A stretch of 22,489 bases of DNA. Origin: a virus. This document shows, in pieces, positions 1 through 22,489 of this stretch. Both the position numbers and the translations under genes were made by a program. Below the pieces are notes generated by a model. That model ran no database searches. It was given only the letters and a program-made list of their open reading frames with translations, and had not been told where the DNA came from. Where the stretch lies: IMG/VR virus record IMGVR_UViG_3300030104_001871, positions 1 to 22,489 of that record; one strand, 5' to 3'. The number at the start of each line of letters is the position of its first letter. Positions within the stretch are counted from its first letter, which is position 1.

Positions 1-20
1 TATTATACAAGAACTTCAAT

Positions 21-341
21 TTAGATTTTACCCCCCCCTTCCCTAGATTCTTTTCCTGATTTAGAGTTATGATGGTAATGGCAAAGAGATTGTAAATTAT
101 TTATATCTAATCCCAACTCATTATTATCCCTGTATCTAACTATATGATCAACTACTTCTGCCTCTGTTATCTTATCATCCTTCAAACATTCAACGCAAAA
201 AGGATTGTTCCTGATGTAATACTTTCTAAGATTCCTCCATGCAGTACTATGATAAAACTTCTGTGTACTCTCATCAGTTCTACCTCTGAATGGAACTCTC
301 TTTCCCATCCACCATCTTCTTCTTTTGTTAGGCTTTTTCAT
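21..341 (-). CDS. HNH endonuclease
   Basis: A 106-residue HNH homing/packaging-type nuclease. A basic N-terminus (residues 1-20) is followed by a zinc-binding pair C49/C52, the catalytic D65-H66 in a VVDHI context, the Asn pair N81/N82, and the second metal ligands C87/H90 with H91-N92. This is the typical short HNH layout. In HK97-like phages such genes stand directly before the small terminase and their products assist cos cleavage. Here the gene ends near the left edge while terS lies at the right edge, which fits if the molecule is circular. It overlaps the upstream DnaA-like gene by 14 bp. The last codons cross a run of eight G on the coding strand, so the exact C-terminus depends on that homopolymer being read correctly. 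Confidence 0.9.
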   Translation of the reverse strand: MKKPNKRRRWWMGKRVPFRGRTDESTQKFYHSTAWRNLRKYYIRNNPFCVECLKDDKITEAEVVDHIVRYRDNNELGLDINNLQSLCHYHHNSKSGKESREGGGKI

Positions 342-744
342 GCTGTCTAAATACTTCTAGAATAGCTTCTGTCTTACTGTTAGGAGTAGTGTACATCTTT
401 AGGCATTGCTTTATCTGTTCTCTCATTGTAAAATGTTCAGGATAAACTCCTCTATCTACTGAATGTTTTAAGGTATTAATATACTTATCAAATGGAGCTG
501 ATTCTTTTATAAACTTAACTGAATGAATAATAGTAGCATGATTAGATCCTGTTAATCTACCTATCTCTGTCCATGATAATAGCTCCTTCTCATGTAAATA
601 GTATCTTAATAGATGCCTAGCTACAGCTATATTCTTCTCCCTACTTAATCCTAATATATCTGCTGGACATACATTCATTAGCTTAGATGTAAAATCTAAT
701 GCTTCTGTTAGTTTCTCTGTTCGTAATGTTTTAATCTTTCTCAT
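328..744 (-). CDS. DnaA domain IV-like replication initiator or regulator
   Basis: This 138-residue protein resembles the C-terminal DNA-binding domain of DnaA without the AAA+ ATPase. Residues about 14-95 follow the domain IV pattern: a helix, a loop with basic residues (R35, K37), a helix around ARHLLRYYL, then the helix-turn-helix SWTEIGRLTG with the signature NHATIIHSVKFI (68-79). In bacterial DnaA that signature begins D-H-T-T, so His and the second Thr are kept while Asp becomes Asn and the first Thr becomes Ala. About 43 extra C-terminal residues have no recognised domain. The start codon abuts an array of 10-bp repeats resembling DnaA boxes. I infer that it binds them to start replication, control its own gene, or recruit host factors. 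It could also be only a transcriptional regulator. Confidence 0.78.
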   Translation of the reverse strand: MRKIKTLRTEKLTEALDFTSKLMNVCPADILGLSREKNIAVARHLLRYYLHEKELLSWTEIGRLTGSNHATIIHSVKFIKESAPFDKYINTLKHSVDRGVYPEHFTMREQIKQCLKMYTTPNSKTEAILEVFRQHEKA

Positions 745-783
745 TGTGTCTAATTGTCTAGTCTTGTCTAGTCTTGTGTCTAA
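744..783. repeat. Iteron-like array of four 10-bp units
   Basis: Four contiguous 10-bp units in A-B-B-A order, read on the plus strand: TTGTGTCTAA (744-753), TTGTCTAGTC (754-763), TTGTCTAGTC (764-773), TTGTGTCTAA (774-783). On the minus strand the A unit contains TTAGACACA, which differs from the DnaA-box consensus TTATNCACA at one specified base. The last base of unit 1 overlaps the first base of the DnaA-like gene's start codon, so binding would also affect that gene's expression. The 10-bp period would place every unit on one face of the helix. Confidence 0.8.
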
Positions 784-835
784 TTTTAATCCCTTTGTTT
801 ATAAAGGCTGTAGTACTATTTAGCCATATCTTTAT

Positions 836-853
836 AATATTATTAATAATATT
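836..853. repeat. 18-bp perfect AT palindrome
   Basis: AATATTATTAATAATATT reads the same on both strands and lies in the middle of the AT-rich region between the two repeat clusters. It could aid strand opening or bind a dimeric protein. It has no GC pairs and no T-tract context, so it is not a terminator. Confidence 0.6.
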
Positions 854-900
854 TAGTATATATATATAATATATAAAGAAAAATAAACTCTTTTTATTCT

Positions 901-1038
901 CTATTTCTTGTGTCTTGTGTCTAATTCACCTGTATCATCCTCATCTTCAGCATCTTCCTCATAGACATAATCATCATCTTCTGTCTGATTTGCTGGATGA
1001 TATGGCAAATAATCCCACCAATCCTCCCAATTACTCAT
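901..1038 (-). CDS. Small highly acidic protein
   Basis: A 45-residue ORF beginning MSNWEDWWDY. Its second half is dominated by Asp and Glu (residues 20-40) and it ends in a short basic tail, RHKK. The start overlaps the last codons of the upstream 95-residue gene, as is usual for translationally coupled genes in this operon, which supports it being real. No family is recognised. Strong acidity in a replication operon could mean a DNA mimic or a charged partner protein, but nothing in the sequence proves this. Its 3' end contains the distal iteron. Confidence 0.6.
   Translation of the reverse strand: MSNWEDWWDYLPYHPANQTEDDDYVYEEDAEDEDDTGELDTRHKK
908..924. repeat. Distal iteron copy with partial tandem unit
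   Basis: TTGTGTC is repeated at 908-914 and 915-921, and the second copy continues to the complete unit TTGTGTCTAA (915-924), identical to the units at 744 and 774. These bases also encode the last residues of the small acidic protein at 901-1038, so the repeat is embedded in coding sequence. Confidence 0.65.
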
Positions 1039-1318
1039 CTATTTTTGTTTTAGTTTGTTCTTTAATCATATATATAAGGTCTGTTATAGAATCATATACT
1101 ACCTCTAATCTTTCCTCATCTATATCAAAGTTCTTATTAATCTGTTTCTCATAGTTATTAGCTGTACTAATAAGCCTATTAAACCATTGTTTTACTATTC
1201 CTGAATGTTTACCCTTTAGATTATATAATTGCTCATTAAAGCTCTTATATGTAGCTAACATTAATATTAAATCTATCTGTTCTTCTTTTGTCATCTTAGA
1301 AAGGTGTTTCCCATTCAT
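1031..1318 (-). CDS. Hypothetical helical protein
   Basis: A 95-residue protein, rich in Lys, Glu and Asn, predicted by eye to be almost entirely alpha-helical. It has no signal peptide, membrane segment or known motif. It overlaps the 3' end of the primase/helicase gene by 23 bp and the start of the acidic ORF by 8 bp, so it is part of the replication operon. I do not recognise the family. An accessory role in replication is suggested only by position. Confidence 0.7.
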   Translation of the reverse strand: MNGKHLSKMTKEEQIDLILMLATYKSFNEQLYNLKGKHSGIVKQWFNRLISTANNYEKQINKNFDIDEERLEVVYDSITDLIYMIKEQTKTKIDE

Positions 1319-3494
1319 CCTCAGTTAATTTCTCCATTTGCGATACTCTACCCACATAATAGCCTCTTAACTGTTTACCATCTACTGATTTTCTTCCTGC
1401 TGCATATCCTAGCTGTTTCATAGCTCTAGATACATTATATGTAGTTAATCGTATTTTGCTCTCAGAAATAGCTACTAAATCCTGTAATATCTCTGTATTA
1501 GATAAGAACTGCCCTGAGTTTTCAGGAACTATTCTAAAGTTCTTAATAATCAGCTCTCTCTCAGAAGTTACAACCTCAAAATCTTTGTTAATAGATTCTC
1601 TCTTATTAGCCTCTTCATTAGTTAGCTGGTAATTAAAGCCATCTCTATATAACTGCCAAGCCTGTCGCCATACATTACTAATATTAATAGATGTATAAGA
1701 AAAGTTAATATCTAATACTGCAAAACATAGCCATCTAGTATTCTCTATATCAGCTAGAAAATCAGTTCTATTTGTTGATCCAAAGAAATTACATCTTCTA
1801 GGCTGTTCTACTTCATTGACAGCATATGCTTTCCTCTCCTTAACTACAGATTTAGATATAATAGCTTTTAGCTTATTTATCTCTACATATGAGAGAGATG
1901 ATAGCTCCTCTAAGTTATATATAAAGTTCTCTGAGAATCTAAACTCTGTATCTTTATTATCAGCCAATGGAGATTCTGTATAGTACTTATTACCGAATGG
2001 ATTCAAGTACCTTAGAAATGTACTCTTTCCTGTTCCCTGTTTCTCTCCTACCAATACAAAAACTATTCTATTCTCTTTATTATATAAGCTACAGGCAATA
2101 CATCTCACTAATGCCTTTCTAAACATCTCTACAAAATATTCAGTATCATCTGTAGATATATGCTCTGCTAATTGTCTAATATAATCAGGCTCATCTTTTT
2201 TATAATCTTCTAGATTAATAAAGTATTCAATAAATGGATTATAGCTAGGGACAAAATCAGAGTTTAGTAATGATTTAATTCTATCTAATCCAAACTTAAA
2301 TCCTGAATGCTGGAGATCTCTATAGACATCATTAATATTAAGTAATTTAAAATCTTTTTCTTCTTTCTTTTTAAAATCTGTAGTTTGTGTTATTTCATTA
2401 GATAAGAACTCATATTTGCTATTCAGATAATGCTCCACCTTTACTATCATAGGCTTATTATCTAAATTAAATTCATCTCTATATTTAGAAAATACATTAT
2501 TAAATATAACTCTAATATCTGAGCCATCTAACTCAAACATTTCACCACATTTTATTACATCTGAGTTAGTCCAATTATTACCAGCTCTATTCAATGCTCT
2601 AGCATAATCTTCTACAGATTGAGATTTCGCTAGTTTTTTAAAATCTTTTTTTGTATCTTCAATATAAAGAGGACGAAGTTTACCATTATTAATACCATCT
2701 ATAATAGTACGAATAGCTCCATCTAAATCTCTAGGATTCCTCTGTGAAATAGCATCTACTAAAGCTCCTTCACATTCAATTTCATCAAGTACTCCACCTG
2801 CGACATACCCCCCCATGAGGTTAGCAGCAGATAGGAGTACTTTATGCTTATCACCATCAGGAGCAGAAAGTACCATCTCTACAGCATTCTTTATTATATG
2901 AGAGTACCCTAAAACTCTCTTAGCTGGAGATAATACTTTCTTTGGTTTTACCTCCTGAATTTTTATCTGTTTACTTTCTTCTACATCTGTATATTCTTTA
3001 GCAGTAGGATTAAAAAATAAATGAGGATCATATGAAATATATCTAGGCCTAGATAAATCTTTACAAGCCTTATCTACCTCTATCCCATATGTTTCCATAT
3101 AATACCTCTGCAATGATAAAAATGTTTCTTTATGCTTATCACCTTTAATCTTTACTATTACAGCCAATCCATTCCCTGAACATGATATAAATAGATATTC
3201 TGTATAAGGATCTAAAGATAACAGCCCTCTAATATCTTCTAGATTAGGTATATTATCTATGTCTATAATAATCCTATCATTATGCTCTTTCAGTCCCTTG
3301 TCATTTCTTTTGGAAAATGTACCTGAACCTGTAAAATAAGGTAATGATGTTTTTATACTCTTATCTCCTGATTCTCTCAGCTTCTCTATAGGAGCTTTCC
3401 ATCTTCCTCTTTTAATACCATCCATTACTTTAGATATAGGTACATCTATGCCTCCTGTAGTTTGTTTTATGTTTGGGAATATTGTTGTATTCAT
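1296..3494 (-). CDS. Primase/helicase with BT4734-VirE N-terminal domain and VapE-like ATPase
   Basis: A 732-residue two-part replication protein. Residues about 1-170 match the BT4734/VirE-type N-terminal domain common in Bacteroidetes mobile elements. They include an IIIDIDN acidic pair (D78, D80), SGNGLAVIV (106-114) and SRPRYISYDPHLFFNP (148-163), a layout reminiscent of archaeo-eukaryotic primase folds. A middle segment (about 195-300) resembles a PriCT-like linker. The C-terminal half is a VapE/SF3-like ATPase with Walker A GEKQGTGKS (483-491), an acidic NLEELSS Walker B region (527-533) and the sensor-like FFGSTNR (570-576). The likely role is priming and unwinding at the phage origin. 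With no phage DNA polymerase present, it would work with the host polymerase. Primase activity is inferred; the ATPase assignment is firmer. Confidence 0.85.
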   Translation of the reverse strand: MNTTIFPNIKQTTGGIDVPISKVMDGIKRGRWKAPIEKLRESGDKSIKTSLPYFTGSGTFSKRNDKGLKEHNDRIIIDIDNIPNLEDIRGLLSLDPYTEYLFISCSGNGLAVIVKIKGDKHKETFLSLQRYYMETYGIEVDKACKDLSRPRYISYDPHLFFNPTAKEYTDVEESKQIKIQEVKPKKVLSPAKRVLGYSHIIKNAVEMVLSAPDGDKHKVLLSAANLMGGYVAGGVLDEIECEGALVDAISQRNPRDLDGAIRTIIDGINNGKLRPLYIEDTKKDFKKLAKSQSVEDYARALNRAGNNWTNSDVIKCGEMFELDGSDIRVIFNNVFSKYRDEFNLDNKPMIVKVEHYLNSKYEFLSNEITQTTDFKKKEEKDFKLLNINDVYRDLQHSGFKFGLDRIKSLLNSDFVPSYNPFIEYFINLEDYKKDEPDYIRQLAEHISTDDTEYFVEMFRKALVRCIACSLYNKENRIVFVLVGEKQGTGKSTFLRYLNPFGNKYYTESPLADNKDTEFRFSENFIYNLEELSSLSYVEINKLKAIISKSVVKERKAYAVNEVEQPRRCNFFGSTNRTDFLADIENTRWLCFAVLDINFSYTSINISNVWRQAWQLYRDGFNYQLTNEEANKRESINKDFEVVTSERELIIKNFRIVPENSGQFLSNTEILQDLVAISESKIRLTTYNVSRAMKQLGYAAGRKSVDGKQLRGYYVGRVSQMEKLTEDEWETPF

Positions 3495-3497
3495 ATC

Positions 3498-3926
3498 TTA
3501 TATATACATACTATTCATAAATTCAGCATAATCATTATAGTTCCTAGCTATATAATATATACCTCCAGCATCATTAATCTCTACCTCTATCACTCTCTGA
3601 TCAGCAGATTGCTTATCCTTTCCAATCTTAACCTCTACACCGAAGAATTGACCATTTATAATACCTATTATATCAGGTATTCCCTTTCTCATTCCTCCCT
3701 TTCTCCATTGCCCTCTTTTACCATCATAAACTCCCATAGTATTAATTCTGTAAGCTATACCTCCTCTAATTTTAAAATCTACTACTATAGCCTTAGTAAG
3801 TTCATTAGATGTTTTATCTTTATAGTTTGTTCTAGGAACAGCAAAATCAGGAACAGAGGAATATTTTCCACAATTCAATTCAAATGCAAATGCATTCAGC
3901 TCTTTTAAATCTTTAGGTAAGTTCAT
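3498..3926 (-). CDS. VRR-NUC family nuclease
   Basis: A 142-residue PD-(D/E)XK nuclease of VRR-NUC type. The core is GIPDIIGIINGQFFGVEVKIGKD with active-site D85, E98 and K100, followed by the helix containing Q110 and ending in AGGIYYIARN, a classic VRR-NUC sequence of events. Such stand-alone phage proteins are thought to cleave branched DNA or act as Holliday-junction-resolvase-like enzymes. It overlaps the methyltransferase gene upstream by 14 bp and lies 3 bp before the primase/helicase gene, so all three are probably made from one message. Confidence 0.83.
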   Translation of the reverse strand: MNLPKDLKELNAFAFELNCGKYSSVPDFAVPRTNYKDKTSNELTKAIVVDFKIRGGIAYRINTMGVYDGKRGQWRKGGMRKGIPDIIGIINGQFFGVEVKIGKDKQSADQRVIEVEINDAGGIYYIARNYNDYAEFMNSMYI

Positions 3927-4578
3927 TGATATATATTTTTTTTTCTGTTGATTTTATAATCTCTATACATAATTCTGATGGAATTTTAGATCTTTCATAA
4001 TTTCCTTTTTTTCCCTGTGTACCTGTTCTATTACCTCTAGGAGCAGGCTCATGATGACAATTAATATTACCATTATGACATTCATCTCTAGGAATCCATC
4101 CATTTGGATTAAATATAGAGTATAAATTATTAGTAAATATATCTGTAGGTTTTGCTGCAATATCTCCATATTTACAATACCAAACTGTAGTTCTAGGTAT
4201 GCCTTTTATAAATGATTGCTTTCTAAATAATCCTCTTGGATTTTCTATGTAATAAATACAGTTAAAATGTTTTATTATTTTTAGTGTATTTTTAACAAGC
4301 CTATCAGATTTATATGCAAAATCACTCCATGTTCTCTGAGGATGTTTTTTGTTAGGTCTATGAAACCTAATCCCAGCTATAGAATAAGTAGTACATGGAG
4401 GAGATGCCCATATCATATCAGGATTAAAAGGAATCATATCAGGAGTTAAATCTTCTATATCTATAGATAAATCTATTCCCTCAAAATCTTTTACATCAAC
4501 ACTAAAAACTTTATGACCTCTAGCTTCTGCTATTTTACCTATACTTCTAGATCCTGCAAATAATTCTAATATCTTCAT
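3913..4578 (-). CDS. DNA (cytosine-5) methyltransferase
   Basis: A 221-residue compact C5 methyltransferase. Motif I is LELFAGSRSIG (4-14), which binds S-adenosylmethionine. Motif IV is ASPPCTTYS (58-66) with catalytic C62. Motif VI is IENPRG (111-116). A KPTDIFTN stretch (143-150) stands where motif VIII is expected. It is much shorter than bacterial Dcm enzymes (about 400 residues) and has little room for a target-recognition domain, as often seen in phage orphan methyltransferases. The probable role is protection of phage DNA from host restriction. No cognate restriction enzyme is evident nearby. It meets the upstream exonuclease gene with a 4-bp overlap. Confidence 0.9.
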   Translation of the reverse strand: MKILELFAGSRSIGKIAEARGHKVFSVDVKDFEGIDLSIDIEDLTPDMIPFNPDMIWASPPCTTYSIAGIRFHRPNKKHPQRTWSDFAYKSDRLVKNTLKIIKHFNCIYYIENPRGLFRKQSFIKGIPRTTVWYCKYGDIAAKPTDIFTNNLYSIFNPNGWIPRDECHNGNINCHHEPAPRGNRTGTQGKKGNYERSKIPSELCIEIIKSTEKKIYINELT

Positions 4579-5309
4579 CTTAAATATTCAGGTAATTGTA
4601 AATGAAAATAATTTAAAGCAATTCTATGGTCATAAGCATTATTCTCTCCCTTCCATTCTTTAAACTGCTGTATTAGTTTTTCTAACTCTGAGTTTGCATA
4701 TTCTAGTAGCTTTGTATCAAGTTTAAATACAGATACTGCATAAGGAGGATTCTTCTCTACTGCTATTATATAATAATCATATATATCCATCAATCTGCAA
4801 TAGATAGCAGCTTGTAGATGATATTTCATATTCCAAGAATCTCTCTGAAATTTGTGAGGCTCAGATGATACAGTAGTTTTTAAATCTAAAATATAATCAT
4901 TAGCCAAACCATCAATAAATCCATGAAATTCTACTCCTTCTATAGTTCCTTTAAAATATTTTTCTGTGGCTTTTATTCCTGACAATAATTCAGATGCTTT
5001 ACTATGAGAGAATACACTATTTTTTACATTAATAGCATCATTCAATTCACTTTGTTTTATTATCTGTTTATCAAGATTAGCCTCCTTAAAATGATTCCAT
5101 ACTTTTCCTGCCCTTCTTCCATCCCATACAGAATAATCATCTAGAAATAAATCTTCCTCTAATACCAACTTATGTATTAGCCTTCCTTGAGCCATAGCAG
5201 GAGTATCTTTTCTCTCTCTATTCTTATAAGATAAGAAATGAGCTGGAGATACAGAGAAACTCTTTAAACTGCTATAACTTAATGGAGTATATTTAGAATG
5301 GAAGGTCAT
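4575..5309 (-). CDS. PD-(D/E)XK exonuclease (RecE/RecB-like)
   Basis: A 244-residue exonuclease of the RecE C-terminal/DUF3799-like group. Key features are SYSSLKSF near the N-terminus, GRLIHKLVLE with H46, FHGFIDG with D133, LDLKTT with D142 and K144, and the YHLQAAIYCRL helix with Q166, giving the standard H...D...DxK...Q set. It would resect double-stranded ends during recombination-dependent replication. It overlaps the upstream single-strand-binding gene by 17 bp, matching the common exonuclease plus ssDNA-binding/annealing pair. No RecT or Erf annealing protein is seen, so the neighbouring SSB may fill that place. Confidence 0.87.
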   Translation of the reverse strand: MTFHSKYTPLSYSSLKSFSVSPAHFLSYKNRERKDTPAMAQGRLIHKLVLEEDLFLDDYSVWDGRRAGKVWNHFKEANLDKQIIKQSELNDAINVKNSVFSHSKASELLSGIKATEKYFKGTIEGVEFHGFIDGLANDYILDLKTTVSSEPHKFQRDSWNMKYHLQAAIYCRLMDIYDYYIIAVEKNPPYAVSVFKLDTKLLEYANSELEKLIQQFKEWKGENNAYDHRIALNYFHLQLPEYLR

Positions 5310-5814
5310 CCTCTACTAATTCTTTAGTTACAAATGGATTATCACCTGTGAACAATGCAGTTAAATCTACAGGAGTATTCTTGTAAGCATCTTTAACATC
5401 TTTAGATAATGCTTTGTGAGGCTTGGGCGATACAGTATATTCTGTAGATAAGCCTTCTCCTGTTCTAGTAACTTTAATATCATATTTCATAGGATCTCCC
5501 CAATCTTCATCCTTAGATAAAGCAGATATTTCATTCTGAATAGATGACTGTGTTAATTGTAATATATTAACAGATTTATCTCTGTAGTTATATACTACCA
5601 ATCCCCAAAAATGTTTGTGTTTATCATTGTCAAAATCAGATGCAGGAGGAAGGTTATCAGTCATTCTAAATCTAATAGGCTTCCCATTAGACCAATTTTC
5701 ATATCCTACTACTGCTTTAGATAATATTCTAAAGGTATTATCACCTTTTAAGAATTTAAAATATCCACCTTTTGAAGTTTTAGGCACTTCATAGCCTTTA
5801 GGTAAAAAATTCAT
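5293..5814 (-). CDS. Single-stranded DNA-binding protein (probable)
   Basis: A 173-residue protein that I assign as a phage SSB. It begins with a Lys/Gly/aromatic-rich segment (KGGYFKFLKGDNTFRIL), has aromatic beta-type stretches such as HFWGLVVYNY (68-77), and ends in the acidic tip VEDDLPF (167-173). That tip closely resembles the DDDIPF tail through which bacterial SSBs recruit partner enzymes. The conserved fold cannot be confirmed by eye, and T7 gp2.5 or T4 gp32-type binders are equally possible models. The next gene downstream is the exonuclease (17-bp overlap), which supports a role in recombination and replication. Confidence 0.7.
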   Translation of the reverse strand: MNFLPKGYEVPKTSKGGYFKFLKGDNTFRILSKAVVGYENWSNGKPIRFRMTDNLPPASDFDNDKHKHFWGLVVYNYRDKSVNILQLTQSSIQNEISALSKDEDWGDPMKYDIKVTRTGEGLSTEYTVSPKPHKALSKDVKDAYKNTPVDLTALFTGDNPFVTKELVEDDLPF

Positions 5815-5815
5815 G

Positions 5816-6100
5816 TTATATAAATTTAGTTAAAAAATCAGTTACTTTTCCAAGACCTGCAGCCCATTCTAATATATTAGATTCTTTGTATGATAATGCT
5901 GTTATTACATTAGTAGATGCTATCTCATAAGAATAAAAATCATCTATCTGTATAATCTTTATACGAGTACAGCTAACATCATTATTAGATTCATGTATCT
6001 TATATAAATACAATGCATCTTCAACAGTATCATCTTTAAAATAAGCTGGGCAAATAATATCCTTTTCTCCTTCAGGAGTTAATAATTTTACTTTTTTCAT
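5816..6100 (-). CDS. Hypothetical protein, first gene of the early operon
   Basis: A 94-residue protein with no recognised family. The N-terminal half is beta-like with two cysteines (IICPAYF and VSCTRIKII) and the C-terminus is a probable helix (ILEWAAGLGKVTDFLTKFI). It has no membrane segment. It is the first gene after the best promoter of the window, whose -7 element ends only 4 bp before the start codon, so the message is probably leaderless or nearly so. Being promoter-proximal, it may be an early host-takeover or regulatory protein, but this is a guess from position. Confidence 0.7.
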   Translation of the reverse strand: MKKVKLLTPEGEKDIICPAYFKDDTVEDALYLYKIHESNNDVSCTRIKIIQIDDFYSYEIASTNVITALSYKESNILEWAAGLGKVTDFLTKFI

Positions 6101-6104
6101 ATTG

Positions 6105-6133
6105 CAAATATATTATTAAATGCGAATAATCAA
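6105..6133 (-). promoter_or_regulatory. Bacteroidetes-type promoter
   Basis: On the minus strand TTG (6133-6131) is followed after 18 bp by TATATTTG (6112-6105), an exact match to the Bacteroidetes primary-sigma consensus TTG-N(about 19)-TAnnTTTG. It lies in the only gap between the metallophosphoesterase and the 94-residue gene and points toward the replication genes. The G of the -7 element is 4 bp from the ATG at 6100, so transcription should begin at or very near the start codon. Confidence 0.8.
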
Positions 6134-6141
6134 AAGTTTTT

Positions 6142-6789
6142 TCAACAAAATGGAATGAGAATAGGAATTTTATCTTTTGTAATAACTCCACATGAGAGTT
6201 TATATGTCTTAGAAAAATGTTTAGAATATGCCATTGCATAAGATTTACGATCTACTCCACAACCTGTCTGCATGGAAAAATAATTACCTGAATATATTAT
6301 AGATGCTTCTGTATGAATATGCCCTTGCACTACATTTGATGAAAATTGTAAACATCTATTAGCTGCTCCATTTCTTCCTGATGAGCCTGTACCATGAACA
6401 AAGAGAATATCTTCTATCTTATGATGTTCTTTAAAATCCCATCCTTCTACTCCCAATACCTCATCATAATCCCTAATCCATCTAGCTGATAACCCTGAAT
6501 CAAATGCTTTTCTCCTTACTATAGCATCATGATTCCCTATGCAAACTTTAGCTTTAGGGAAGGCTTTATACCATTTCTGAATCTTTGCTATAGCTCTATC
6601 TAACTCTTCTCCTGCTCCATAACCATCAGGATCAGAATTGTGGAAGCTGGAGTAATGCATATCTATTACATCTCCTATAAATATAACTTCTCTGCATTTA
6701 TATTTCTTCTGTACAGATATACAATGCTCTAAATATCCATCTATACAGAAAGGCTCATGAATATCCCCTATTATTAAAATGTTTTTCAT
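6142..6789 (-). CDS. Calcineurin-like metallophosphoesterase
   Basis: A 215-residue phosphoesterase with the full metal-binding series: GDIHEPF (D9, H11), GDVID (D40), GNHD (85-88), VHG (H132) and GHIHTE (H157, H159). The length and layout match lambda phosphatase-like phage enzymes that hydrolyse phosphoesters in proteins, nucleotides or RNA ends. Its substrate cannot be read from the sequence. The start overlaps the DUF5675-like gene by 4 bp, so it is co-translated with the lysis-like block. It ends just before the early promoter and is thus the last gene of the rightward transcription unit. Confidence 0.9.
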   Translation of the reverse strand: MKNILIIGDIHEPFCIDGYLEHCISVQKKYKCREVIFIGDVIDMHYSSFHNSDPDGYGAGEELDRAIAKIQKWYKAFPKAKVCIGNHDAIVRRKAFDSGLSARWIRDYDEVLGVEGWDFKEHHKIEDILFVHGTGSSGRNGAANRCLQFSSNVVQGHIHTEASIIYSGNYFSMQTGCGVDRKSYAMAYSKHFSKTYKLSCGVITKDKIPILIPFC

Positions 6790-7199
6790 ATTATTTCTAA
6801 TATAAATCCATCAGGAGCTTTAGATAATAATTTAGTCATTGTAGCCTTAGAATGTGTTATATCAAAATAATCATCATCATTAATATATGCATAGTTTTTT
6901 CCTACTAAAATACATCCCTCTGTTTGATGATTAAAGTTTCCGACATGAATTAATATAAAATCTCTATCAGGAACTCCTATTATATGATAATGATTTTTAT
7001 ACTTTAGAGAGTTTCTTGGAATAACTTCATAAATACCTTTAGGAATACAACTTATAAAAGGAGCATTCATTACAAAAGGAAGCTCTAGAGTTTTACAACT
7101 AAAAACCCTTTCTATACCATCATATAAAATAAACTCTCCTAGAGTTTGCTTGTTATCTTCTGCAAGACGAATTATTACAGCTCTCATTTTTAAATACAC
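6786..7199 (-). CDS. DUF5675-type protein, candidate cell-wall enzyme
   Basis: A 137-residue protein of the DUF5675 type found in many phages and prophages near lysis genes. Characteristic parts are the N-terminal beta strands (TLGEFILYDGIERVFSCKTLELP), CIPKGIYEVIPR, FILIHVGNF (about 83-91) and TEGCILVGKNY (about 95-105). The spaced His and Gly-Cys recall the H...GC arrangement of L,D-transpeptidase-like enzymes, but catalysis has not been shown by anything visible here. It follows several small membrane-like proteins, so it may be the lysis enzyme of this phage. A second Met four codons in (7187) is an equally possible start and shortens the overlap with the upstream gene. Confidence 0.72.
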   Translation of the reverse strand: MYLKMRAVIIRLAEDNKQTLGEFILYDGIERVFSCKTLELPFVMNAPFISCIPKGIYEVIPRNSLKYKNHYHIIGVPDRDFILIHVGNFNHQTEGCILVGKNYAYINDDDYFDITHSKATMTKLLSKAPDGFILEII

Positions 7200-19749: not shown

Positions 19750-19761
19750 GTATAATTATAC
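19750..19761. repeat. 12-bp palindrome upstream of the portal gene
   Basis: GTATAATTATAC is a perfect 12-bp inverted repeat 10 bp upstream of the portal start codon, inside a 130-bp gene-free spacer between divergently oriented genes. It may bind a regulator or be a chance feature of AT-rich DNA. No Bacteroidetes promoter consensus with a correctly spaced TTG was found on either strand of this spacer. Confidence 0.35.
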
Positions 19762-19868
19762 AATTATGCAATATATGTATATATTTTAAAAAAAGATTGA
19801 AATAATTTTGGTAGTTATCAAAGAATGTTTATCTTAGCACTATAATTAAAAAAAAAACCCTAGAAATT

Positions 19869-20081
19869 ATGACTGCAACAAAATTATTAACCGATTTAAA
19901 AAAGAAATTATTAATTATTATTGAAGATGATAAATTAAATAATAGAAAAAGACAATGTCAATTTTTACTTGATGTTTTTTGTATTCAACCAATACCATCA
20001 CAAGAATTTATTACTAATACAAAAGAATTAGTAGATAGTATTATTAAAAAAGATAATATTGATATTTCTTCTTTAAAATAA
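19869..20081 (+). CDS. Plus-strand small protein 1 (moron-like)
   Basis: A 70-residue protein, rich in Lys, Leu, Ile and Asp and mostly helical (TKLLTDLKKKLLIIIEDDKL), then QCQFLLDVFCIQPIPSQEF and a C-terminal helix. No family is recognised. It is the first of two genes that run against all others in the window, between large terminase and portal. The leader includes a long A-run and AACCCTA 6 bp before the ATG, a motif that is repeated before the second gene. A hairpin follows the stop. Its composition is even more A-rich in codons than neighbouring genes, which supports separate acquisition. Confidence 0.65.
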   Translation: MTATKLLTDLKKKLLIIIEDDKLNNRKRQCQFLLDVFCIQPIPSQEFITNTKELVDSIIKKDNIDISSLK

Positions 20082-20086
20082 TTAAT

Positions 20087-20103
20087 GGGAGCTTAATGCT
20101 CCC
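20087..20103 (+). terminator. Hairpin between the two plus-strand genes
   Basis: GGGAGC and GCTCCC pair across a 5-nt loop (TTAAT), starting 5 bp after the stop of the first small gene. It is followed by TTAACCC, not by a T-run, so it is a weak intrinsic terminator at best. A processing or stability element between the two genes is an alternative. Confidence 0.5.
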
Positions 20104-20123
20104 TTAACCCTAAATAAATTATT

Positions 20124-20300
20124 ATGAACGCAGATGAAAAACTAAAAGCAATGATTATTCTTTACAAAGGATTAAGTAAAGATAATCAAGATTTACTGAG
20201 AAGCTTTGTTAGTACATATCAAAAGCAATTAGATAAGTTAGAAGAAGAGAAGAATGTTCTCAAAGATCAACTTATTAAACTAAGAAACTCCTCATATTAG
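20124..20300 (+). CDS. Plus-strand small protein 2, coiled-coil (moron-like)
   Basis: A 58-residue protein beginning MNADEKLKAMIILYKGLSKD. Its second half is a clear heptad-type helix (STYQKQLDKLEEEKNVLKDQLIKLRN), so it is probably a dimeric coiled coil. It starts 42 bp after the first plus-strand gene, with a similar leader (AACCCTAAATAAATTATT before ATG). The stop codon lies within the loop and stem of the following terminator. No family is recognised. Coiled-coil proteins of this size are often regulators or partners of larger proteins, but no role can be stated. Confidence 0.7.
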   Translation: MNADEKLKAMIILYKGLSKDNQDLLRSFVSTYQKQLDKLEEEKNVLKDQLIKLRNSSY

Positions 20301-20314
20301 AGGAGTTTTTTTTT
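20285..20314 (+). terminator. Intrinsic terminator of the plus-strand island
   Basis: AAACTCCTC (20285-20293) and GAGGAGTTT (20300-20308) form a perfect 9-bp stem with a 6-nt loop, followed by further T residues to give nine T in a row (20306-20314). This is a strong Rho-independent terminator. The end of the second small gene overlaps the stem. On the opposite strand the same stem is followed by CTTAGTTT, so it might also slow transcription coming from the terminase gene. Confidence 0.9.
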
Positions 20315-20423
20315 ACTCAAATATTAAACCTATATATAAGATTCCTAGAAAGAATCTAACTTCATTGTCATCCATTGTTATACCAAAGCATAACCCTTTA
20401 ATCATTGCGAACTCTACTGTCAT
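20313..20423 (-). CDS. 36-residue hydrophobic ORF coupled to large terminase
   Basis: A short ORF (MTVEFAMIKGLCFGITMDDNEVRFFLGILYIGLIFE) whose parts are a hydrophobic N-terminal piece, a short acidic turn and a second hydrophobic helix that could span or lie on the membrane. Its ATG overlaps the terminase TGA as TGATG, a common coupling arrangement, and it fills the space to the terminator exactly. No family is recognised, and a chance ORF is possible. Confidence 0.4.
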   Translation of the reverse strand: MTVEFAMIKGLCFGITMDDNEVRFFLGILYIGLIFE

Positions 20424-21955
20424 CATATAAATACTATTTCTGTTTCTAAATCATCTGATTTTCTGTCATCAAGATATTCCACCATTGCATTACACAAAGC
20501 TACTATCCCATCTATTTTCTCTGATGATTTCCTTCTGCTCCATCTCTTATTATCATTCTCATCAAACAATATTACTGCATTATCTACATTCCATGTTAAA
20601 ATAGGATTACCTCCATGCTGTAAAGTTTTTGCCTTAATCTGATTCTCCATCTCTACAATAGCTGGTGTCCATGTATAACTTCCTTGAGCTACTTCTGAAC
20701 AATCTATTCCATGTTCATTAAACAAAGATAAGATTAATTCTGTAGCATACTTTCTATCATACCCTATTCTAATAATATTATACATATCATTAATCTCTAG
20801 GATTCTTTTCTTTATTAATCCATAATCTATAACATTCCCTTCTGTAGCTTCTATAAATTTATTTCTTTCCCAAACATCATAATTAACTCCCTTCTTCATG
20901 GATCTACCCTTAATACTTTCTTCAGGAATCCAAAAGAATGGAATGATATAATTTTTCCCATCTACATCAGGGAAGTATAAAACTAATGAAGATAAATCAT
21001 GAGATTTAGATAAATCTAATCCAGCATAACAATCAGCTCCCAATAACATATCCTTATCAAATGTATCTCCACACATAGCCCATTCTCCTGCTTTAAGCCA
21101 TCTCTCAGATGATGATACCCATATATTCAAATGATATTTTAAAAATGAATTTAATGTAGATCCTATGTTCTTAGCTTTTCTAGATTGCTCCTCTAGATAT
21201 GTTTCCTGTACTGATATTCCATAATTAGGATTAGCCTTCTTCCAAGTATCAGAATCAAATGGATCATCATCTTTAGATGCAGAGTATATCTTTCCATAGA
21301 ATGATACATCTTGAATTACTCCATTGTTTACTTTATTAGTATAATCATGAACTTCATAACAGATAGATGTTGTATCATATCCAGCAGTAGAGATACTAAA
21401 GAATATCGGATTCTTATGAGTACCTTGTGAAGTTCTTAGAACATCATATAATTCTCTGTTAGGTTGAGCTAGTAATTCATCCATAAATACAGCAGTACAT
21501 GATAACCCTAAACTTCTAGGAGCATCAGCAGAAACTACCTGATAGTTAGTATTAGTTTTTAAATTTATAATAGAGTTTCGCATTACCTTTGTCTGCTGCA
21601 TAAGAACAGAAGAGTTTAGGCATATCTGTTTAGCTGCATTAAATATAATAGATGCCTGAGATCTATCTGCTGCTGCCGATATAACTTGTCCTCCAATTGT
21701 ATCAGGATCGAAAAGATGCCATAATGCTAAACATGACATTAAAGCTGATTTTCCATTCTTTCTAGGAATCTCTAGATATATCTCTTTCTTTATTCTGTTT
21801 CCTTCATCATCTACATTAGAATAGATAGGATGTATAATATCTTCCTTCTGCCATTGTTCTAGAATAAATGGATCTCCAGCTTTAGGTCCTGCAACATGAG
21901 TACAAATTCTCTCTATAAAATTTATTACTCTATTTCCTTTCTTCTTATCAATCAT
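20423..21955 (-). CDS. terL: Terminase large subunit
   Basis: A 510-residue packaging motor of the Terminase_1 (HK97/P27-associated) family. The ATPase has a Walker A-like PRKNGKSA (64-71), a Walker B with TAVFMDELL (D159, E160) and an SIST-AGYD coupling motif (188-194). The C-terminal RNase H-like nuclease has D314 in YAGLDLSKSHDLSS and D482 in KIDGIVALCNAM, as expected for metal binding. It cuts and pumps concatemeric DNA into the prohead through the portal. Its start overlaps the end of the small subunit gene by 8 bp. The length is usual for the family. Confidence 0.95.
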   Translation of the reverse strand: MIDKKKGNRVINFIERICTHVAGPKAGDPFILEQWQKEDIIHPIYSNVDDEGNRIKKEIYLEIPRKNGKSALMSCLALWHLFDPDTIGGQVISAAADRSQASIIFNAAKQICLNSSVLMQQTKVMRNSIINLKTNTNYQVVSADAPRSLGLSCTAVFMDELLAQPNRELYDVLRTSQGTHKNPIFFSISTAGYDTTSICYEVHDYTNKVNNGVIQDVSFYGKIYSASKDDDPFDSDTWKKANPNYGISVQETYLEEQSRKAKNIGSTLNSFLKYHLNIWVSSSERWLKAGEWAMCGDTFDKDMLLGADCYAGLDLSKSHDLSSLVLYFPDVDGKNYIIPFFWIPEESIKGRSMKKGVNYDVWERNKFIEATEGNVIDYGLIKKRILEINDMYNIIRIGYDRKYATELILSLFNEHGIDCSEVAQGSYTWTPAIVEMENQIKAKTLQHGGNPILTWNVDNAVILFDENDNKRWSRRKSSEKIDGIVALCNAMVEYLDDRKSDDLETEIVFI

Positions 21956-22406
21956 TTAATAATTCATCTAATGTAATTACTTTATCTTCTACTGCATTTA
22001 ATTTAGCTCTAGCTGAAGGAGTTAATCCAAATTCAGATAACATCTTTTTTACCCTTAACCATGATTCACTCATTATCCTAGCTTTAGGATGCATCTTCCA
22101 CAAAATCTCTCCAGCTTGATTAGTTACTGAATATACATCTCCATGTTTATCTATGTAATCTTTAGCCTTCCTGTAATCATCATATGCTTCTGCCAAAAGA
22201 ACTAAAGCTGTATCATCTACATCATTAATTAGATTCATCTTATGCAATTTTGATGCAGTAGCTAGATAGTAACTTTTAGCTTGATCACTTATATAATCAG
22301 GTAGTACAGGCATAGATGAAGGAAGCTCTAACTTATTCCCATCCCTATCAAATCTAAATGTTCCTTCCTGTTTTTTTAATGCTGTTGGTTTTTTTAATCT
22401 TCCCAT
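21948..22406 (-). CDS. terS: Terminase small subunit (P27 family)
   Basis: A 152-residue protein of the P27 small terminase family. It begins GRLKKPTALKKQEGTFRFDRDG, followed by PSSMPVLPDYISDQAKSYY, the helical LINDVDDTALVLLAEAYDDYRKAKDYI and a SESWLRVKKMLSEFGLTPSARAKL ending, which is the diagnostic C-terminal motif. It recognises the packaging site and regulates the large subunit. Its ATG comes 2 bp after the stop of a mini-ORF. With the HNH gene at the other end of the window this makes the usual HNH-terS-terL cluster if the ends are joined. Confidence 0.93.
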   Translation of the reverse strand: MGRLKKPTALKKQEGTFRFDRDGNKLELPSSMPVLPDYISDQAKSYYLATASKLHKMNLINDVDDTALVLLAEAYDDYRKAKDYIDKHGDVYSVTNQAGEILWKMHPKARIMSESWLRVKKMLSEFGLTPSARAKLNAVEDKVITLDELLND

Positions 22407-22407
22407 A

Positions 22408-22461
22408 TTATTTTAATAATTGCTCAGAGAATTTCCTGAATGCCTCTTCCCAAAAAAACAT
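22408..22461 (-). CDS. 17-codon mini-ORF before terS
   Basis: MFFWEEAFRKFSEQLLK ends one base before the terS start codon. It is amphipathic and looks like a helix. It may serve as a leader for translational coupling of terS, be an independent micro-protein, or be a chance ORF. The run of seven T after its ATG makes its start frame sensitive to sequencing error. The rest of 22462-22489 shows nothing else. Confidence 0.3.
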   Translation of the reverse strand: MFFWEEAFRKFSEQLLK

Positions 22462-22489
22462 ATTAATATTGACATAATATTAACATGTG

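Follow-up and report, generated by a model that had tools for sequence, protein, structure and literature searches.

The virus record IMGVR_UViG_3300030104_001871 (22,489 bases; this whole stretch of DNA is referred to below as the window) encodes phage structural and packaging proteins on the minus strand and probably represents a small tailed phage infecting Bacteroidota. Near one end of the window, the minus-strand genes follow each other in the order VRR-NUC nuclease, primase-helicase, a 95-aa ORF, a 45-aa ORF, an A/T-rich gap, a gene for a DnaA-like protein and an HNH endonuclease (Table 1). All genes surrounding the gap and its repeats are on the same strand. The primase-helicase combines, in one protein, matches to PF08800 (E 1e-21) and PF05272 (E 2e-32), and its family profile matches the vapE-like structure 7pds (E 1e-7). 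The DnaA-like protein matches PF08299 (E 3e-12; 46.7 bits against a cut-off of 31.5), and its predicted fold matches the DnaA DNA-binding domains 3pvp and 1j1v.

Table 1. Features of the repeat site and its genomic surroundings (window coordinates)
Feature	Position	Strand	Remarks
Early region	21-7199		Repeat site at its downstream end
HNH endonuclease	21-341	-	
DnaA domain IV-like protein, 138 aa	328-744	-	Lacks the ATPase domain
Repeat site, likely origin	~744-967		
Proximal array	744-783		Plus strand: 744-753 TTGTGTCTAA (A); 754-763 and 764-773 TTGTCTAGTC (B, B); 774-783 TTGTGTCTAA (A). Read on the minus strand: TTAGACACAA GACTAGACAA GACTAGACAA TTAGACACAA
TAGACA words of the proximal array	747-752, 755-760, 765-770, 777-782	-	Spacing 8/10/12
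A/T-rich core, putative unwinding element	809-886		Includes the palindrome (836-853) and the conserved string TTAATAATATTATAAAGATATGGCTAAA (minus strand)
45-aa acidic ORF	901-1038	-	Distal iterons in its 3' end; not conserved in L001
Distal partial copy, GACACAA	908-914	-	Directly after the 915-924 copy, likewise in the 3' part of the 45-aa ORF
Distal iteron, exact A copy	915-924		Plus strand TTGTGTCTAA, minus strand TTAGACACAA
Inverted TAGACA, distal side	962-967	+	Overlooked in the first-pass annotation
95-aa small ORF	1031-1318	-	In the helicase-to-origin interval; 87-aa counterpart in L001/L005 (L005 980-1243)
VapE-type primase-helicase, 732 aa	1296-3494	-	BT4734-like N-terminal domain, VapE-like helicase core, C-terminal winged helix
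Probable iteron-reading domain, predicted as a winged helix	1299-1595	-	Helicase residues 634-732; predicted recognition helix ~685-695
VRR-NUC nuclease	3498-3926	-	
Terminase subunits	20423-22406	-	

A first-pass annotation of this DNA had described an A-B-B-A array of 10-bp units, a third A unit, an A/T-rich stretch and a palindrome, and all four lie where it had put them. The exact match between the A copies extends over 12 bp (TTGTGTCTAATT) in all three of them, and TTAGACACA occurs 3 times in the window against 0.28 expected. When the window was shuffled 30 times with dinucleotides preserved, no A-B-B-A array of 10-mers arose. The minus-strand unit TTAGACACAA ends on the first base of the DnaA-like gene's ATG, the A at 744. 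The third A copy is exact, as stated, but is located within the 3'-terminal part of the 45-aa ORF and not in intergenic space; this ORF is possibly not a real gene. Together, the iterons form two sets around a 93% A/T core, with four on one side and, on the other, a weak set of one full, one partial and one inverted copy. The 60 bp starting at 831 are the A/T maximum of the window (93%), and the core string TTAATAATATTATAAAGATATGGCTAAA was matched in only one other viral contig. The 18-bp palindrome is perfect, but it is weak evidence because a palindrome of this kind appeared in 53 of 5000 shuffles of the core; L001, a locus of the close relative described below, retains only its inner part. 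GC skew, which had been proposed as a check, was computed over the whole window and gave no origin signal at the repeat site; the skew is negative nearly everywhere, approaching zero most closely at approximately 9-10 kb and 19-20 kb, and is therefore uninformative for an origin at this position. Searches for promoters, terminators, Rfam families and tRNAs yielded none beyond chance.

In the collections searched, we identified a single close relative, the contig IMGVR 3300038825_000309 (loci L001 and L005), with 71% identity in the DnaA-like protein and 81% in the helicase. Alignment of the window to L001 showed 86% identity over the noncoding core (809-879) and 80% over the proximal repeats, compared with 73-76% for the coding DNA of the DnaA-like and HNH genes and 25-54% for the spacers. 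The proximal array of L001 contains four TAGACA words with the spacings 12, 10 and 8, as in the window, whereas the 10-bp units are lost; on the distal side, L001 has two CTAGACACA copies in opposite orientation and another TAGACA. Thus, the phasing of the repeats at 10 bp, on which the first-pass annotation had relied, is not the conserved feature, and the conserved word, judged from this alignment, is TAGACA. A cis-acting role of the segment is well supported by the same comparison, because the core and the TAGACA spacings are kept in L001 while the spacers diverge. For the same reason, with the core at 86% exceeding the coding sequence, the repeats beside the DnaA-like gene are likely to be the phage replication origin. 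Chance repeats in an A/T-rich intergenic stretch, which the low complexity of the region and a palindrome that is weak alone might suggest, are very improbable in view of the result of the 30 shuffles and of the spacing and core kept in L001. At L005 1349-2218, between the helicase and the origin, the relative carries an extra gene for a 289-aa protein with a PAPS-reductase-like start (SGGKTSA) and no Pfam match.

Helicase relatives were gathered from viral contigs, prokaryote genomes and phage records, giving 66 loci, and each locus was scanned in full for its strongest short-repeat (6-mer) cluster. For 50 of the 66 loci, the distance from the helicase stop to this cluster on the 3' side is 0-900 bp; the set contains near-duplicates (for example, L009/L051, L034/L035, L039/L040 and L010/L063), so that the number of independent cases is somewhat smaller. 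In L005, the cluster, again of the word TAGACA, is 1.2 kb past the helicase stop because of the gene inserted after the helicase. The layout persists while the word changes: iterons commonly flank an A/T core, with lineage-specific words including GGTTACA, TGGAACA, TGTGAAC, TGACCA, AGACCA and TAGACA (GGTTACATTA in L013 and L047; TGGAACAT in L009, L046 and L050; TGTGAACGTT in L042 and L059; TGACCACT in phi12:1; AGACCA in L057), and iteron similarity drops as helicase distance grows (r = -0.53). In several lineages, as in the window, the next gene is directly preceded by an array of three or four iterons at a spacing of 8-13 bp. The window contains six TAGACA words, whereas most relatives have more iterons, often 7-13, and its inner iterons share one orientation across the core, whereas the inner pairs of the relatives are usually opposed. 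Two small ORFs (95 and 45 aa) occupy the helicase-to-origin interval of the window, whereas in most relatives the iterons follow the helicase directly. The origin interpretation of the first-pass annotation is supported, given that iterons flanking the A/T-richest stretch recur 3' of the helicase in most relatives and that the core is more conserved than the neighboring genes. In the open-access literature, we found no report of this layout in these phages.

The array might instead be an operator or promoter element controlling the DnaA-like gene, whose start codon the last unit overlaps, and there are promoter-like matches in the region. However, these matches number 8 compared with 6.7 in shuffles, which is no excess, the repeats resume beyond the core, inside another ORF, and the relatives have the same layout ahead of unrelated genes, which makes regulation of the DnaA-like gene an improbable explanation of the array.

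Most helicase relatives have no DnaA-like gene nearby, and the layout occurs in relatives of this kind as well. The DnaA-like gene lies outside the shared layout because other genes stand at this place in relatives, for example, the VRR-NUC nuclease, which follows the iterons in lotta8-1, FPSV-S1 and L036. The gene was present on 6 of the 24 helicase contigs examined. In L036, it follows the nuclease at a distance of 0.75 kb from the iterons, which lie upstream of it and adjoin the helicase; in L058, it is found on the upstream side of the helicase, approximately 4.3 kb from the iterons, which remain downstream of the helicase. The first-pass annotation had paired the repeats with the DnaA-domain protein encoded next to them. 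This assignment is not supported, given the recurrence of the layout without the gene and the position of the repeats behind the helicase in both L036 and L058. It is also at odds with nine further DnaA-domain genes from phages not belonging to the close clade, including Pelagibacter phages, none of which has an outstanding adjacent repeat cluster or DnaA boxes close by. Nor was a repeat cluster detected beside the DnaA-like gene in L067 and L007, and no DnaA boxes were found near most other DnaA-like genes. Retention of the DnaA-like gene in relatives without the repeats had been named as evidence against the origin; such cases occur in the distant L007, L067 and Pelagibacter phages, but not in the close L001. 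We additionally observed that the contigs L053, L062 and L067 carry a DnaA-like gene and have no iterons 3' of the helicase, and that a direct repeat (GATTATTAAGAAAACTTAACTTA) is located upstream of the DnaA-like gene in L067 (~5930-6010).

The possibility that the 138-aa DnaA domain IV-like protein treats the TTAGACACA units as modified DnaA boxes and either unwinds the A/T core or brings in the helicase draws on several observations. The gene is adjacent to the repeats, TTAGACACA differs at one position from the DnaA box TTATNCACA, the domain IV fold is retained together with the invariant Arg35, Arg43 and His69, the four proximal units run in one direction beside the A/T core as in a bacterial oriC, and L001 keeps both the gene and the repeats. 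The identity of the DnaA residues that contact the DnaA box counts for little in this analysis. However, the 22.5 kb window contains no exact copy of the DnaA box, and L001 retains TAGACA only, with the first T of the box gone and the final CACA gone in the proximal array. Furthermore, the protein has no ATPase domain and therefore cannot form a DnaA filament, DnaA-like genes of other phages have no adjoining repeats, and helicase relatives devoid of the gene share the layout. We accordingly consider the adjacent DnaA-like protein an unlikely partner of the repeats. The gene is probably a passenger or neighbor of the repeats, or encodes an accessory factor or regulator, because relatives place other genes, often the VRR-NUC nuclease, at this position. 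A literature search on DnaA-like phage proteins retrieved nothing relevant.

The partner of the repeats is, in our assessment, probably the phage's own VapE-type helicase. SaPI Rep helicases recognize, through their C-terminal domain, iterons that directly follow the rep gene, and Cch2, a related protein, likewise uses its C-terminal domain to bind direct repeats downstream of its gene (PMC7581432); in this rep-ori layout, the A/T core melts. In phage-inducible chromosomal islands (PICIs), the origin directly follows rep on its 3' side, and an A/T-rich region is invariably flanked by two sets of iterons, a layout that, according to the authors, is common to no other known bacterial replicon (PMC6092414). 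The window shares with the PICI rep-ori units (SaPIs, EcCI) a VapE/D5-type primase-helicase initiator, an origin 3' of its gene, and short iterons with lineage-specific words flanking an A/T-rich region; many of the helicase relatives are built in this way too. Unlike these satellites, the window belongs to a phage with terminase, capsid and tail genes, and it differs also by fewer iterons, unidirectional inner iterons, and the presence of two small ORFs and the DnaA-like gene at the site.

The winged-helix model of helicase residues 634-732 has a mean pLDDT of 82, and the fold matches of the helicase C-terminus are weak; among them is the origin-binding domain of phage P4 (1ka8, E 0.17). The P4 alpha protein, too, is a primase-helicase with a C-terminal winged-helix origin-binding domain, a domain that is predicted in the window, and the likeness is limited to this weak structural match. 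Among the relatives, the predicted recognition helix varies alongside the iteron word, and a tyrosine opening this helix is common to the window, L005 and L057, all with AGAC in their iterons; as these represent two lineages only, the correspondence between the tyrosine and AGAC is suggestive. In a partial Mantel test of the C-terminus against the iteron word beyond helicase distance, the partial r was -0.09, with 101 of 2000 permutations as low; as a predictor of the iteron word, the helicase core was only marginally poorer than the C-terminal domain. The apparent tracking of the iteron word by the recognition helix is only suggestive, given that this formal test gives little signal beyond overall helicase relatedness.

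We propose that the segment at ~744-967 is probably a rep-ori unit of the PICI build residing in a tailed, Bacteroidota-type phage. The C-terminal winged helix of the helicase would bind the TAGACA iterons that flank the core downstream of the helicase gene; the helicase would then assemble at the iterons, the A/T core would melt, and synthesis would be started by the primase portion of this protein. The small number of iterons in the window, their one-way inner orientation and the two intervening ORFs count against this proposal, as do the marginal result of the partial Mantel test, the scarcer iterons on helicase contigs with a DnaA-like gene and the availability of a single close relative. 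The proposal provides a concrete, testable origin and a named likely initiator for a small uncultivated phage, and would extend a known type of replicon to Bacteroidota phages in a form open to testing. It also implies that the gene adjoining a set of repeats need not be their reader.

A hybrid arrangement can be envisaged as well, in which the ATPase-less DnaA domain IV protein took over iteron recognition from the helicase in this clade, or shares it, such that a PICI-type helicase would be loaded by a DnaA-box-like array. This scenario is kept in play by the single mismatch between TTAGACACA and the DnaA box and by the somewhat lower frequency of iterons on helicase contigs that carry a DnaA-like gene: iterons were found on 3 of the 6 contigs with the gene vs 16 of the 18 without it (p = 0.08), a difference that could hint at substitution but on which we base no claim of an association. 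We regard both the takeover or sharing and the loading by such an array as rather unlikely. With bacterial oriC and DnaA, the window has in common the domain IV fold in the adjacent gene, a unit one mismatch off the DnaA box and an A/T-rich neighbor; it differs in having neither an exact DnaA box nor the ATPase domain, and most of its relatives lack a DnaA-type protein.

Among the phages used for comparison, the Flavobacterium and Cellulophaga phages lotta8-1, FPSV-S1 and phi12:1 have helicase cores 35-50% identical to that of the window and iterons 3' of the helicase. They differ in their words (TGGAACA, GGTTACA and TGACCA) and in encoding the primase and the helicase as separate genes, and, in lotta8-1 and FPSV-S1, in having the VRR-NUC nuclease as the next gene.

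Outside the repeat site, the ends of the window (1-20 and 22407-22489) nearly match those of the independent L001 contig (L001 4724-4743; L085 2598-2660). Both contigs stop approximately 20 bases past the HNH gene, after a run of G, and at the other end 60-90 bases before the gene for the terminase small subunit. The near coincidence of the contig ends on both sides suggests fixed physical ends of the cos type and, thus, near-complete genomes of 22.5-23.7 kb. An A/T-rich stretch at 19750-20420, between a portal-side gene and the large terminase gene, contains two small plus-strand ORFs (19869-20081 and 20124-20300), whereas the rest of the genome is coded on the minus strand; this stretch is possibly a regulatory region.
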